Source: a bacterium
GTDB lineage: Bacteria > DRYD01
Assembly: GCA_026418475.1 (NCBI GenBank)
Contig: JAOABG010000008.1
Span: 1 to 33,994, forward strand
Direction of reading: 5' to 3'
DNA: 33,994 nt
Shown: piece by piece, positions 4,084 to 22,969 of the stretch
Numbering within the stretch: position 1 is the stretch's first letter
How the letters are laid out: each line of letters opens with the position of its first letter
The notes under the pieces: model-generated
Told to the model about the DNA's origin: nothing
Seen by the model: only the letters and a program-made list of their open reading frames with translations
Databases searched by the model: none
Position numbers and translations under genes: made by a program

Positions 4084-5808
4084 ATGCTAAAAAGTATTCA
4101 ATGGAATTTAGAAACCATATATCCTTCACCAGATTCTCCTGAAATACACAAAGAAATAGAATTACTAAAGAAACTAATAGAGAATCTTAAAATAATCATA
4201 CAATCATCAGATAAGGAAACAGAAAAAACAGATAACAATGAAAAAATAAAACAAATCATTTCAGAATATGAAAAAATAACTCAAATCAATAGGAAATTGC
4301 AAGCATACATAACATGTATTCTTTCAACAGATAGCAAAAATGAGCAAGCTCATAAAATGAAGGGAGTCCTTTATCAAATTAATTCATCTTTGCATTTATT
4401 ACATATAAAAATTGAAAAACTGATATTTGAAAGCAAAGTAGATATCTCAGAATACAGCTATTTTCTAAAGCAATCTGTAGAAAATTACGAGCATAGGATG
4501 TCTAACGAAAAAGAAGAACTATACAGCTCTCTTTACATTTCTTCATCATCAGAATGGAAAACCTTATATAATGAATTAATTTCAAACATAAAGGTTCAAT
4601 TTGAAGACAAGATTATTTCAATAAGTCAACTTAGGAACTATTATAATAACCCTGAAAGAGAAATACGTCAAAAAGCCTATGAAAAAGAAATAGAGATATT
4701 CAGTGAAAATGAATATATATTTGCCAGAATCTTAAATTCAGTAAAATGGGACTCAATAGTTATAAGTAAAAATAGAAACTTCAAAAGTATTTTAGAGCAA
4801 TCACTTTTTTACAACCAAATAGACAAAGAAGTATTAGATATAGTTTTAAACACTTCTATTGAAAATTTGGACAAATTCCAAAGATATTTCAATAAAAAAG
4901 CTCAAATATTAGGATTAGAAAAATTGGATTGGTTTGACTTATCAGCCCCTCTTTTTGCGGACAAGATAGAAAAGTTTGAATTCCATAAAGCCCAAGAATT
5001 TATCTTAGAAAATTTCTCAGGTTTCTCAGATGAACTGTATAAGATGGCCTTGACTGCATTCGACTATAATTGGATAGATGCTGAACCAAGATTAGGTAAA
5101 ACAGACGGTGGGTTCTGTATATATGTTCATAACAATGAATCAAGAATACTGGTAAATTATGATAACTCAATAAAATCTGTTTTAACATTAGCTCATGAGC
5201 TTGGTCACGCCTACCATAACTGGGTAATGTCTGAGAACACACCAATCTACAGACATTCACCATTAATATTGGCAGAGACAGCAAGCATACTGGCAGAAAC
5301 AATAACGAGGAGAAATGCAATAAAGAATTCAGAAAATAAATATGTTCAGGCATATATACTTGACGGATACCTATATACCACAAGTGTTGTAGTAATAGAT
5401 ATAATCTCACGTTTCCTATTCGAGGATAAAATCATAAACATAAGAAAGGAGAGGATATTAACACCCAAAGAATTATGTAGTATAATGTTAGATTCTCAAA
5501 AAGAAGTTTATTTAGACAGTATAAATTCTTACCATCCATATATGTGGGCAAATAAGCCGCATTATTACTCATCAAATTACTATAATTACCCTTATTTAGT
5601 TGGATTACTCATAGGATTGGCATTATACAATTTATATGAAAAAGGTAATATAACAAGTAGAGATTACAGAGAGATACTAAAAAACACTCCAAAAGATAAA
5701 CCAGAAAGAATATTAAAAGGATTGGGAATAGATTTAAAAAGTCCTGATTTTTGGCAAGAAGCTTTTGAACCTATAGAAAATGATATACGAGAGTTTGAGA
5801 AGATATAA
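4084..5808 (+). CDS. pepF: Oligoendopeptidase F-type M3 metallopeptidase
   Basis: LTLAHELGHAYHNW zinc motif (HExxH), downstream ETASILAETI, C-terminal YYNYPYLVGLLIGLALYNLYEKG; length 574 aa. Confidence 0.93.
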   Translation: MLKSIQWNLETIYPSPDSPEIHKEIELLKKLIENLKIIIQSSDKETEKTDNNEKIKQIISEYEKITQINRKLQAYITCILSTDSKNEQAHKMKGVLYQINSSLHLLHIKIEKLIFESKVDISEYSYFLKQSVENYEHRMSNEKEELYSSLYISSSSEWKTLYNELISNIKVQFEDKIISISQLRNYYNNPEREIRQKAYEKEIEIFSENEYIFARILNSVKWDSIVISKNRNFKSILEQSLFYNQIDKEVLDIVLNTSIENLDKFQRYFNKKAQILGLEKLDWFDLSAPLFADKIEKFEFHKAQEFILENFSGFSDELYKMALTAFDYNWIDAEPRLGKTDGGFCIYVHNNESRILVNYDNSIKSVLTLAHELGHAYHNWVMSENTPIYRHSPLILAETASILAETITRRNAIKNSENKYVQAYILDGYLYTTSVVVIDIISRFLFEDKIINIRKERILTPKELCSIMLDSQKEVYLDSINSYHPYMWANKPHYYSSNYYNYPYLVGLLIGLALYNLYEKGNITSRDYREILKNTPKDKPERILKGLGIDLKSPDFWQEAFEPIENDIREFEKI

Positions 5809-5846
5809 CCGCTTGTCCGAGTAAGCGGTATATAAATATACGGACA
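5808..5846 (+). ncRNA. Candidate intercistronic H-type pseudoknot, instance 1 (pepF to SDR)
   Basis: Stem 1 ACCGCTT 5808-5814 with AAGCGGT 5823-5829. Loop GTCCG 5815-5819 pairs with CGGAC 5841-5845 (TGTCCG/CGGACA if 5814 joins stem 2). Linker ATATAAATATA. Starts on the last base of the pepF TAA. Confidence 0.6.
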
Positions 5847-5860
5847 TCAAAACAGGAGTT

Positions 5861-6676
5861 ATGCTAAAAACAGAAAATATGGTGGATTTGATAAGGGAGC
5901 CTATAAAACTAAGTGGATGGGCACTGATATTGGGAGCATCATCAGGTTTTGGAGCAGCAACAGCAATAACACTTGCTAAAACAGGAATGGACATAATTGG
6001 TATCCATTTGGATAGAAAATCAACTCTCCAGAATGCCATTGATGTCAAAAATACAATAGAAAATTTGGGAAGAAAAACAATTTTTTATAACACCAATGCA
6101 GCAGATAACAGCAAAATGGATGAAATAGTTAGAGAACTCAAAAACAACATTGGAGAGAAAACAATCAGGGTACTACTCCATTCTCTAGCTTTTGGATCTT
6201 TAAAACCTTACATTGGTGATGATTCAGTTTCTAAGGAGCAATTAGAAATGACGATTGATGTTATGGCAAATTCATTGGTGTATTGGGTTCAGAAATTGCT
6301 CAAAAATAACATGTTTTGTAAAGATGCAAGGATATTTGCAATGACAAGTATAGGTTCCAGCAGAAACTGGAAAAGTTATGGACCTGTATCAGCAGCTAAA
6401 GCTATCTTAGAAGCACATATAAGACAATTGGCTTTGGAATTAGCACCATATGGTATAACAGCCAATGCCATATGTGCTGGAGTTACACCTACACCAGCAC
6501 TAATGAAAATACCGGGTCATGAAGATATGATGGAAAAAGCTCAGAAATATAATCCACATGGGAAACTGACAACACCAATAGACATAGCAAATGCAATAAT
6601 GCTATTATCTCACCCAGCTTCATACTGGATAACTGGAAACACCATCTATGTTGATGGTGGAGAATTTTTAACATGA
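5861..6676 (+). CDS. Short-chain dehydrogenase/reductase, enoyl-ACP reductase-like
   Basis: ILGASSGFGAATAITLAKTG nucleotide-binding motif, S..Y(x3)K-type active site SIGSSRNWKSYGPVSAAKAILEAHIRQLALELAPYGITANAICAGVTPTPAL, C-terminal ITGNTIYVDGGEF. Confidence 0.85.
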   Translation: MLKTENMVDLIREPIKLSGWALILGASSGFGAATAITLAKTGMDIIGIHLDRKSTLQNAIDVKNTIENLGRKTIFYNTNAADNSKMDEIVRELKNNIGEKTIRVLLHSLAFGSLKPYIGDDSVSKEQLEMTIDVMANSLVYWVQKLLKNNMFCKDARIFAMTSIGSSRNWKSYGPVSAAKAILEAHIRQLALELAPYGITANAICAGVTPTPALMKIPGHEDMMEKAQKYNPHGKLTTPIDIANAIMLLSHPASYWITGNTIYVDGGEFLT

Positions 6677-10094: not shown

Positions 10095-10104
10095 AGAAAA
10101 GGGA

Positions 10105-10157
10105 AGGGAATGGAGTCTCCCTTTAACCGCTGCTTCAGAGGCAGCTGATGACTCCTA
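10105..10157 (+). ncRNA. Fluoride riboswitch (crcB motif) aptamer
   Basis: AGGGAATGGAGTCTCCCTTTAACCGCTGCTTCAGAGGCAGCTGATGACTCCTA matches the crcB consensus. GGAGTC 10112-10117 pairs GACTCC 10150-10155; GCTGC 10129-10133 pairs GCAGC 10141-10145; pseudoknot AGGGA 10105-10109 pairs TCCCT 10118-10122; conserved CUGAUGNCUCCUA 3' end. Confidence 0.93.
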
Positions 10158-10173
10158 AAAACAAAAATAAAGG

Positions 10174-10186
10174 AGGGAGACTCCAT
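10174..10186 (+). promoter_or_regulatory. Expression platform: anti-aptamer strand overlapping the Shine-Dalgarno and start codon
   Basis: AGGGAGACTCCAT 10174-10186 is the exact reverse complement of ATGGAGTCTCCCT 10110-10122 inside the aptamer (13 bp) and includes part of the SD and the AT of the start codon. Confidence 0.75.
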
Positions 10187-11345
10187 GGAAACAGTATATT
10201 ATCAAATATCACTCCTGGTTCTGATAGCGTTAATATCCGTCTTAATAGCAATTGAATTTAAAATCCCATTATCATTATCAGAGATAATAACAGCATCTGC
10301 GGCAAGCTACATTATTGGCATATTTGGATTACAAGAGAATCTGAGTGAATTAATTTTAAAGGCAGAATGGTTAAAAGTCCTATCTTCTCTTGGAGCAATA
10401 TTTTTAACTTTTTTAGCAGGAACAGAAGTAAATATTGGCGTTATAAAGAATAAGAGTAAAGAGGTATTATCAGTTGGTTTGTTAGGTTTCTTAGCACCAT
10501 TTATAGGATGCTTTCTAGTGGCATTATTAATCTTAAAATGGAATATCAAAGCCAGTTTAATCACAGGAATAGCTCTATCAACAACTTCAGTAGCAGTAGT
10601 TTATACAGTAATGTATAATTATAATTTAAATCAGTCTGATTTTGGTAAAGGAATATTAGCATCATGTTTTATAAATGACTTAGTAACAGTACTAGCACTC
10701 AGCTTAATATTTTCTCCATTTAACTATAAAACTCTTATTTTTTTATTTTTATGTATTATTTCTTTTATTATTATTCCAAAAGTAAGTAAATTTCTGATAA
10801 ATAAATATTCAAATAAGGGATCAGCATTTAGGGTTAAATGGATAAAGTTCATACTAATAATTCTGGGAACAGTGGCATTATGGTCAGGAAACGAACCTAT
10901 ATTACCAGCATATATCATAGGAATTATCATATCAGACACAGTAACCAAAGACGAAAATTTTATGAAAAGATTAAGATCAATAACAATAGGAATATTAACA
11001 CCTTTTTACTTTATAAAAGCAGGTTTTCTTTTGTCAATAAAAGTTATTTTGTCATTTCCAAGTTTAGTAATAATCTTACTATTCTCAAAAGTTCTATCAA
11101 AAATAATTGGCTTATATCCAATTGTAAAAATTTTTATTAAGGATAAAAACAAAAGTTGGTATTATACAATGATGATGTCAACAGGTTTAACTTTTGGAAC
11201 CATTTCAGCTTTATATGGGTTAACACATAACATTATAAACTTAAATCAATACTCATTAATAGTAGTTGCTGTAATATTAAGTGCAATAATTCCAACTTTA
11301 ATAGCAAATAGTGTCTTTCTACCAAAGTTTCTCTTCAAAAAATAA
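10185..11345 (+). CDS. Cation/proton antiporter (CPA family), predicted fluoride-inducible
   Basis: Multi-TM protein: LGAIFLTFLAGTEVNIGVIKNKSKEV, TGIALSTTSVAVVYTVM, PAYIIGIIISDTV, TPFYFIKAGFLLS. Typical Na+/H+ exchanger-like; preceded by a crcB riboswitch. Confidence 0.85.
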   Translation: METVYYQISLLVLIALISVLIAIEFKIPLSLSEIITASAASYIIGIFGLQENLSELILKAEWLKVLSSLGAIFLTFLAGTEVNIGVIKNKSKEVLSVGLLGFLAPFIGCFLVALLILKWNIKASLITGIALSTTSVAVVYTVMYNYNLNQSDFGKGILASCFINDLVTVLALSLIFSPFNYKTLIFLFLCIISFIIIPKVSKFLINKYSNKGSAFRVKWIKFILIILGTVALWSGNEPILPAYIIGIIISDTVTKDENFMKRLRSITIGILTPFYFIKAGFLLSIKVILSFPSLVIILLFSKVLSKIIGLYPIVKIFIKDKNKSWYYTMMMSTGLTFGTISALYGLTHNIINLNQYSLIVVAVILSAIIPTLIANSVFLPKFLFKK

Positions 11346-13041: not shown

Positions 13042-13662
13042 ATGTCCGCATCTACCATTTCTGTTAAGTTAAAAGACAAACCAAGGAAAGTAATCCCCAA
13101 TTATGAACCAAAAGTTAATGAAGAAAAACAAGAAAAATTAAACCTGGCAAGGGATATAATAAACAACTCAAAATTAATAGTCTTTACTTTGTATCAAAAA
13201 CCAAATGTCAGTATTAAAGCATGGGAATTTGTCAAATACAATTCTGGTATAGAGGAAATAGGTGGAGATATAAAAGTAATAAAAAATTCATTTTTAAAGA
13301 TAGCACTTGAAGAAAAAAACTATAATGAACTGGTTCCCAAAATAAGAGGAGCAGTTGTTGTAAATTACACAAAAAATGATCCCATAAACTTGGCTAAGAA
13401 ACTTGATGAAATAATTTCAACCCTAAGGAAAGAAAAAAATATAAAAGAGGATATACCGGAGATACTTTTCGGTATCCTAGAAGGCAAAGTGATCAGTGCT
13501 CAAGATGTAAATCAGTTGTCCAAAATACCCTCAAAAGAAGTACTACTTGCTCAATTAGCAGGGACATTAAAAGCACCAATATCAAAGTTAGCAAGTACAC
13601 TCAACACCATTATATTAAAATTATTATGGGCTTTACAAGCAGTGAAAGAAAAGAAAGGATAA
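13042..13662 (+). CDS. rplJ: 50S ribosomal protein L10
   Basis: KLIVFTLYQKPNVSIKAWEFVKYNSG...KVIKNSFLKIALEE, LAGTLKAPISKLASTLNTIILKLLWALQAVKEKK; directly upstream of rplL; SD CAGGAGG. Confidence 0.9.
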   Translation: MSASTISVKLKDKPRKVIPNYEPKVNEEKQEKLNLARDIINNSKLIVFTLYQKPNVSIKAWEFVKYNSGIEEIGGDIKVIKNSFLKIALEEKNYNELVPKIRGAVVVNYTKNDPINLAKKLDEIISTLRKEKNIKEDIPEILFGILEGKVISAQDVNQLSKIPSKEVLLAQLAGTLKAPISKLASTLNTIILKLLWALQAVKEKKG

Positions 13663-13697
13663 CCGCGTTCAAGAGCGCGGTATAAAAGTACTCTGAA
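13662..13697 (+). ncRNA. Candidate intercistronic H-type pseudoknot, instance 2 (rplJ to rplL)
   Basis: Stem 1 ACCGCG 13662-13667 with CGCGGT 13676-13681. The loop TTCAAGAG 13668-13675 pairs with CTCTGAA 13691-13697 (one bulged A). Linker ATAAAAGTA. Starts on the last base of the rplJ TAA. Confidence 0.62.
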
Positions 13698-13735
13698 CAA
13701 GCCAAAAGCTTGCCAAAAGCAAGTGAAAAGTGCTT
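13698..13735 (+). promoter_or_regulatory. Chain of mutually exclusive hairpins upstream of rplL
   Basis: CAAGC 13698-13702/GCTTG 13708-13712; GCTTGC 13708-13713/GCAAGT 13719-13724; AAGCA 13717-13721/TGCTT 13731-13735, with CAAAA loops in the first two. Confidence 0.5.
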
Positions 13736-13752
13736 GTAAAGGAAGGAAAAAC

Positions 13753-22363: not shown

Positions 22364-22918
22364 TTACTTTTTAAATGGTAATCCAATTAATCTGAGCAAT
22401 TCATAAGCTTCTTTATCATTCCTAGCAGTAGTTGTTATATTTATATCCATTCCTCTGACTTTATCAATGTCATCATACGATAACTCAGGAAATATTATCT
22501 GTTCTTTTATACCAAGATTGTAATTCCCTCTTCCATCAAAACCATTATTGTTTATCCCTCTAAAATCCCTAATTCTGGGTAGTACGATAGAAATGAGCTT
22601 ATCGAGAAAAGCCCACATTTTTGCTTTTCTCAAAGTAACTTTAAGCCCTATATTCATACCTTTTCTGAGCTTAAAATTGGAAATAGATTTTTTAGCTTTT
22701 ATGACTACAGGAGCCTGACCAGTTATAACAGTTAGCTGCTTTTGTATTTTTTTTATTATATCCTGATTTTGAGTTGCATCACCAACACCCATATTGACAA
22801 CAACTTTTTCTATTTTAGGGACCTGCATAACATTCTTATAATTAAACATTCTCATTAGCTCTGGAACAACCTCTTTTTTATATTTTTCATATAATCTCAT
22901 TTCATTTAGTTTCAGCAT
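22364..22918 (-). CDS. rplE: 50S ribosomal protein L5
   Basis: [19 protein letters not shown]...[66 protein letters not shown]. Confidence 0.97.
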
Positions 22919-22929
22919 TTTTTTATTAT

Positions 22930-22969
22930 CCGAGGATTTTTATTCCGCTTGATCCCCCGGTAAAGCGGA
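22930..22969 (-). ncRNA. Candidate intercistronic H-type pseudoknot, instance 3 (rplX to rplE)
   Basis: Minus strand TCCGCTT(22969-22963)-TACCGGGGGATC-AAGCGGA(22950-22944)-ATAAAAA-TCCTCGG. Loop CCGGGG(G) 22960-22954 pairs with (T)CCTCGG 22936-22930, with G.U at one or two positions. Confidence 0.58.

Follow-up and report, generated by a model that had tools for sequence, protein, structure and literature searches.

Pseudoknots in the 5' leaders of Calescibacteriaceae genes as a candidate substitute for the Shine-Dalgarno sequence

Signals for translation initiation in bacteria are regarded as linear: an mRNA has a Shine-Dalgarno sequence (SD), or its start is unstructured or leaderless. RNA structure is usually considered an obstacle or a switch. 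The closest working analogue of the element that we describe here is in tisB of E. coli, where an H-type pseudoknot in the leader is needed for 30S binding and for translation of its own mRNA (PMC7708055). Related pseudoknots are known from toxin mRNAs (PMC11228461). The tisB knot and our element are alike in fold (H-type) and in place (the 5' leader of a bacterial mRNA). But tisB is a single stress-toxin mRNA whose knot lies ~100 nt 5' of a sequestered ribosome binding site and whose translation requires S1 (PMC7708055), while our element precedes dozens of housekeeping genes, with the knot beside the AUG, an SD that is often absent, and no bS1 found in the genomes.

Several translational riboswitches (preQ1-I, SAM-II, SAM-V, SAM/SAH, and fluoride) are likewise compact H-type pseudoknots close to the start codon, and their third loop is A-rich. 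The element differs from these in that it has no Rfam match, its genes share no common pathway, its stem 2 is freely variable, and the SD is not sequestered; indeed, the knot is found where the SD is missing. Given the unrelated genes and the mostly weak or absent SD, we rejected a riboswitch of the preQ1-I or SAM-II type. Viral -1 frameshifting pseudoknots of the BWYV type have a GC-rich stem 1, a short loop 1, and an A-rich loop across the minor groove of stem 1. The element shares the GC-rich stem 1 and the short loop 1, and we propose that it shares the A-rich minor-groove loop, but it has no conserved slippery site and it precedes the start codon, mostly outside reading frames.

The dicistrovirus IGR IRES shares with our element the idea of a pseudoknotted RNA that starts translation without an SD, but it is viral and triple-knotted. 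It is also not a precedent, because it is active in E. coli without its fold: the fold is dispensable there, and activity needs S1 and an SD-like sequence (PMC9458429). A survey of SD-less initiation makes no mention of a structured replacement for the SD in the parts that deal with leaderless mRNAs, S1, and low structure (PMC5397173). We found no account of our family in a search of open-access papers.

Three leader pseudoknots in one window

The window is the whole 33,994-nt stretch of contig JAOABG010000008.1 that we analyzed. It has a G+C content of 30% and belongs to a genome (G000; 1.57 Mb in 189 contigs, 79% complete) from a lineage of uncultured hot-spring bacteria. By rplB, the closest named relatives are Candidatus Calescibacterium sp. 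SKYB25 (98%), a MAG from a Tibetan hot spring (90%), and MAG S143 (77%), which places the window in Ca. Calescibacterium, phylum Calescibacteriota. The initial annotation reported three sites, at 5808, between rplJ and rplL, and between rplX and rplE. The sequence, coordinates, and pairings of all three check out, and all three are H-type pseudoknots:

5805..5846, + strand: pseudoknot 1, 5' of an SDR gene (FabI/FabL-like); the conserved A at -4 is 5805
5808-5814/5823-5829, + strand: stem 1 of pseudoknot 1, ACCGCTT/AAGCGGT
5815-5822, + strand: loop of pseudoknot 1
5829-5837, + strand: linker of pseudoknot 1, TATATAAAT
5815-5819/5841-5845, + strand: stem 2 of pseudoknot 1, GTCCG/CGGAC
5861..6676, + strand: SDR family oxidoreductase, enoyl-ACP reductase-like, served by pseudoknot 1
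13662..13698, + strand: pseudoknot 2, between rplJ and rplL, with linker TATAAAAGT
13662-13667/13676-13681, + strand: stem 1 of pseudoknot 2, ACCGCG/CGCGGT
13668-13675/13691-13697, + strand: stem 2 of pseudoknot 2, TTC(A)AGAG/CTCTGAA
13753..14139, + strand: rplL (ribosomal protein bL12), served by pseudoknot 2
22930..22968, - strand: pseudoknot 3, between rplX and rplE, with CCGC at 22968-22965 and GCGG at 22948-22945
22944-22936, - strand: linker of pseudoknot 3, AATAAAAAT
22960-22955/22935-22930, - strand: stem 2 of pseudoknot 3, CCGGGG/CCTCGG
22364..22918, - strand: rplE (ribosomal protein uL5), served by pseudoknot 3 and without an SD (TAATAAAAAAATG)

Pseudoknot 1 is kept in the close relative G003, with differences confined to the loop and the flank. 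The start codon of the SDR gene lies 52 nt from CCGC, and a short AGGAG sits 2 nt from the ATG. Its orthologues in G002 and G004 are without the pseudoknot and have SDs of -10.6 and -11.8, respectively (dG of pairing). Pseudoknot 2 is conserved in G003 and G002, and it is missing from G004, whose rplL has a strong SD (-11.2). The rplL leader also contains an extra short hairpin (AAGCTTGCCAAAAGCAAG) between pseudoknot 2 and the SD, within 13700-13752 on the + strand; this gives rplL the longest pseudoknot-to-start distance in the window. In pseudoknot 3 of G002, stem 2 is GCCGAGG/(U)CUCGGC, which has different letters but retains the pairing.

A generic scan for this architecture found the 5808 site in the window, and 10 shuffled windows gave no match. 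A covariance model that covers stem 1 and the linker, built partly from the three sites or their close kin, recovered all three (E = 5.5e-7, 2.4e-5, and 1.1e-3) and gave one further weak match (E = 0.7), which is an antisense echo of pseudoknot 1. The element is not a known Rfam class: an Rfam scan of the window found nothing at the elements, and permissive scans of 16 element loci gave only sub-threshold chance matches (to snoRNA, miRNA, CRISPR, and similar families). The sole Rfam match in the window is elsewhere, a fluoride riboswitch (RF01734, 55 bits) at 10097-10164 on the + strand. It is directly 5' of a gene (10185-11345) that resembles CPA2-family cation/proton antiporters, not crcB.

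A dispersed family with a covarying stem 2

Similar elements are dispersed through the genomes, with the consensus A-N3-CCGC-S2a-(L2)-GCGG-WAUANAAR(U)-S2b. In order, the parts are CCGC, T/C, a stem-2 strand of 5-11 nt, L2, GCGG, W-A-T-A-N-A-A-R-T, and the second stem-2 strand, which usually begins 8-12 nt past GCGG. The element spans 35-45 nt, and long forms have an added stem. An unpaired A is found four bases 5' of CCGC in 62/67 copies. No U-tract follows stem 1, as first reported; in nearly all copies the A-rich linker WATANAART is there instead, so we rejected an intrinsic terminator.

The family is larger than first described. The pattern CCGC-N(6-22)-GCGG-NNNANA matches the G000 genome 28 times and its reversal 3 times; 27 of those 28 matches carry a strong stem 2 (5-10 bp, of differing sequence). 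The pattern is enriched, with at least 12 matches each, in all six Calescibacteriaceae genomes (G000-G005, from Ca. Calescibacterium and its sister genus; we refer to the two genera as genus 1 and genus 2). None of 53 other genomes has a comparable excess over the reversed-pattern control, and G006, from a sister family in the same order, has one match to each of the two patterns. A wider model search of 386 genomes applied strict filters and scored just 17 candidates per genome, so outside the family it counts only as weak negative evidence, and the taxonomic range beyond Calescibacteriaceae is a lower bound.

The genes downstream of the element include rplL, rplE, rpsD, rpmE, rpsB, rplQ, rpmF, frr, tig, acpP, gapA, mdh, ssb, recA, rpoZ, hppA, sufC, asnS, acs, and ilvE, with some of these names assigned by reading the sequence. 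About 30-40 genes per genome are served; these are mostly housekeeping genes, and many are probably highly expressed. They have no common pathway. This list is too mixed for a single metabolic regulon, which we ruled out, and since the element precedes at least 34 different gene groups, it is not an autoregulatory leader of a ribosomal protein. We also rejected a phage-borne element. A viral collection had no long-form matches and nine short-form matches, of which three had a stem-2 score of 12 or more, which is about the rate for swapped pairs (see below).

To quantify covariation, we compared 101 copies from five genomes. Stem 2 pairs (score of 12 or more) in 95% of these, as compared to 25% if loops and tails are swapped between copies, and the mean pairing score is 17.2 as compared to 10.35 for the swap control (standard deviation of control means, 0.28). 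This control is conservative, since G-rich loops and C-rich tails are common to all members. The 101 copies contain 83 distinct stem-2 sequences, with pairing kept, which bears out the initial proposal of a selected RNA pseudoknot and rules out a copied DNA repeat (except for about 12 long copies in G004, discussed below). Stem 1 covaries as well in G002, at rpoZ (CTGC/GCAG, with stem 2 ACAGGGA/TCCCTGT) and at acs (CTGCC/GGCAG). By comparative sequence analysis, the covariation establishes an RNA pseudoknot structure.

Orthologous copies tell the same story at two distances. Among 26 orthologous pairs from G000 and G003, the fraction of changed sites was 4.4% and 3.3% for the two stem-2 strands and 3.5% for the linker, as compared to 14.8% for L1, 14.3% for L2, and 14.0% for the flank; the stem-2 figure alone is unbiased, because the search pattern fixes stem 1 and parts of the linker. 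Six of 34 orthologue groups (rpsD, cutA, STAS, acpP, jag, and kbl) have the element in both genera. There, the sequence of stem 2 is mostly or wholly different, yet it pairs. The complementarity of loop and tail is thus kept in orthologues where examined. The initial annotation had named three outcomes that would count against it (a lack of further instances, loss of this complementarity in orthologues, and an Rfam match); we checked all three, and none spoke against a selected pseudoknot family.

Start codons, Shine-Dalgarno sequences, and a proposed role

In all 67 contexts that we examined, a same-strand start codon lies 43-90 nt after CCGC. Relative to CCGC, the position of the upstream stop codon ranges from -155 to +39, and 6/67 copies have no same-strand gene end within 200 nt on the 5' side. 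Many genus-1 copies begin only a few nt from that stop, while in genus 2 a gap of 11-111 nt separates the two. The element belongs to the 5' leader and is anchored to the downstream start codon; it had looked stop-anchored because the genes of genus 1 are tightly packed.

We compared the leaders of 34 orthologue groups in G000, G002, and G004, using protein alignments to place the starts. A group was included if one or more of its genomes had the element; the SD played no part in the choice. All 38 orthologues without the element have an SD dG of -7.3 or below (median -11.0). The 56 with the element have a median of -4.0, and 42 of them are weaker than -7 (p = 1.5e-13, with vs. without; orthologues are not fully independent observations, and this holds for the next comparison as well). 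Within genes, 27/29 comparisons agree with a swap (Wilcoxon p = 3.5e-6). The swap goes both ways: at rplE, tig, rpmE, and rplL the element is found in genus 1 and the SD in genus 2, and asnS, sufC, hppA, rpmF, and rpsB show the reverse. The clearest case is rplE. Its listed neighbours in the ribosomal cluster of the window all have strong SDs and rplE has only the knot, while the ribosomal cluster of G004 is knot-free and its rplE carries GGAGG. The mirror image is asnS. Two decayed copies have kept CCGC/GCGG and the linker and have lost stem 2, and both have a strong SD, namely recA in G000 (SD -11.5) and kbl in G002 (SD -10.0).

The element and the SD are not mutually exclusive, as 14/56 element-bearing orthologues have a good SD too. 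A weak SD is also seen in ~28% (genus 1) to 44% (genus 2) of the element-free genes sampled, so the knot is not a requirement for every SD-less start. Across copies, the strength of stem 2 is not correlated with the strength of the SD.

Spacing is consistent with a role near the start codon. Among the SD-less copies in genus 1, 17/22 have 23-33 nt from GCGG to AUG (mode 25-28); the distance is longer in copies with an SD (p = 2.6e-4), as if an SD had been inserted. SD-less and SD copies do not differ significantly in genus 2 (p = 0.30). Stem 2 of the SD-less genus-1 copies usually ends about 10-13 nt 5' of the AUG, close to where the SD/anti-SD helix would lie. The 3' end of the 16S rRNA is canonical (GGATCACCTCCTTT), so the loss of the SD is not caused by a changed 16S.

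Searches with TIGR00717 and PF00575 did not find bS1 in G000-G005, which are metagenome-assembled genomes that are 71-90% complete. The only S1-domain proteins found in them are PNPase and, in five of the six, an ORF of ~575 amino acids with a single S1 domain. The element-free G006 has a four-domain S1 protein (named 30S ribosomal protein S1 in NCBIfam). If gaps in the assemblies are independent, chance absence of bS1 from all six would have a probability of ~1e-5, which is a rough guide only. As no protein with several S1 domains was found in G000-G005, the element is probably not an S1-dependent standby pseudoknot of the tisB type. The tie between the missing bS1 and the element is only suggestive, because there is just one evolutionary contrast, between one family and one genome, with incomplete assemblies.

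On sequence evidence, then, the element appears to work like an SD, in that it lies just 5' of the start and is exchangeable with the SD at orthologous genes. Because of position, swap, relics without stem 2, and spacing together, we propose that this cis-acting H-type pseudoknot substitutes for the SD in translation initiation (probability of roughly 0.7). The evidence suggests that the knot recruits or positions the ribosome, and we infer that it binds the ribosome and raises initiation. Specifically, a knot about 10-25 nt 5' of the start codon would act in cis. Stem 1 would stack on stem 2, with the A-rich linker WAUANAARU in the stem-1 minor groove; in this compact form, the knot would dock on the 30S platform near the usual site of the SD/anti-SD duplex, holding the A-rich and unstructured downstream AUG in the P site. 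The knot may also compensate for the missing bS1. A more speculative scenario, which we consider possible but just short of probable, is that the lineage lost bS1 and evolved a genome-wide, 30S-docking knot that replaced the SD gene by gene, as a cellular counterpart of an IRES, with a triple-interleaved form in at least one other lineage (see below).

Alternatively, the element might be a shared regulatory leader: an RNA-binding protein, a ribosomal protein, or a small ligand would bind the core and switch a large regulon, and the SD would be weak since initiation depends on the bound factor. Conservation in stem 1, the linker, and the unpaired A at -4 is what a recognised core would give, and jag/khpB, which encodes an RNA-binding protein, has the element in both genera. 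But the genes served (ribosomal proteins, acpP, gapA, tig, ssb, recA, and others) have no common pathway, membership turns over (only 6/34 groups have the element in both genera), and replacement by a constitutive strong SD is not predicted, so we consider this explanation unlikely. An mRNA stabiliser, which would block a 5'-3' exonuclease or shield the 5' end after intercistronic cleavage and so prolong the life of the downstream cistron, fits with compact GC-rich knots 5' of probably abundant proteins, often within operons whose neighbours need different output (rplJ/rplL and rplX/rplE). It predicts neither the loss of the SD nor a fixed distance to the AUG in SD-less copies, and it seems improbable.

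Another explanation is at the DNA level. GCGG-TATAWAAAT could be an inverted repeat combined with a -10-like promoter, whose mRNAs would have short leaders or none and would not need an SD; the linker does resemble a -10 box about 17-25 nt 5' of the AUG, and leaderless starts would account for weak SDs. This is very improbable: transcription that began there would cut through stem 2, which covaries; linker-to-upstream distances vary by more than 30 nt; and there is no conserved -35 at a fixed distance. Finally, the initial annotation proposed a stop-codon-anchored element that blocks 3'-5' decay or controls reinitiation. The closeness of many genus-1 copies to the stop of the upstream gene fits with this, but the variable and sometimes absent stop largely refutes it, since the constant neighbour is the start codon.

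If the knot does substitute for the SD, then cellular genomes would contain a structured initiation signal: a recurrent fold that replaces the SD at orthologues, including ribosomal protein genes. Dozens of housekeeping genes in these bacteria have a knot where their relatives have an SD. Genes that have either an SD or a knot are a natural experiment, and the system could be used to test how start sites are chosen by ribosomes that lack bS1. The knot could be a compact part for SD-independent expression in thermophiles. Also, gene finders that score the SD would misjudge starts that bear the element.

Long forms of the element

Long insertions in L2 are tolerated, with a stem-1 loop of up to 42 nt. 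In the long copies of G004, L2 is roughly 15-35 nt and the whole stem-1 loop is 23-42 nt; a strong SD is found in 0/18 of the copies with long loops. About 12 of the long copies in G004 (loci L358-L368 and L160) are near-identical over ~160 nt and lie 5' of unrelated genes. Most of these include a trailing AT-rich hairpin (AAAAGTGTATA...TATACACTTTT) and conserved upstream sequence. This subset looks amplified, as if a leader element had spread by copying to new places in the genome.

In several long copies, the strand just 5' of stem 1 pairs with L2, so that there are three interleaved helices. The third helix is TTAGCCT/AGGCTAA in most of these and TTTAGCGTTCTT/AAGAACGCTAAA in another.

Outside of the order, we found one long-form copy in G147, which is a single 2.27 Mb contig. 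This copy (locus L214, 1500-1540) lies between an argD-like gene and argG. A 400 kb sample of G147 had no other long copy, and a second candidate (locus L339) was judged by inspection to be due to chance. The long copy in G147 may reflect either horizontal transfer or deeper ancestry. It has GGTTAGCCT/AGGCTAACC and GCTGGG/CCCAGC pairings, and its third stem, TTAGCCT/AGGCTAA, is that of G004.
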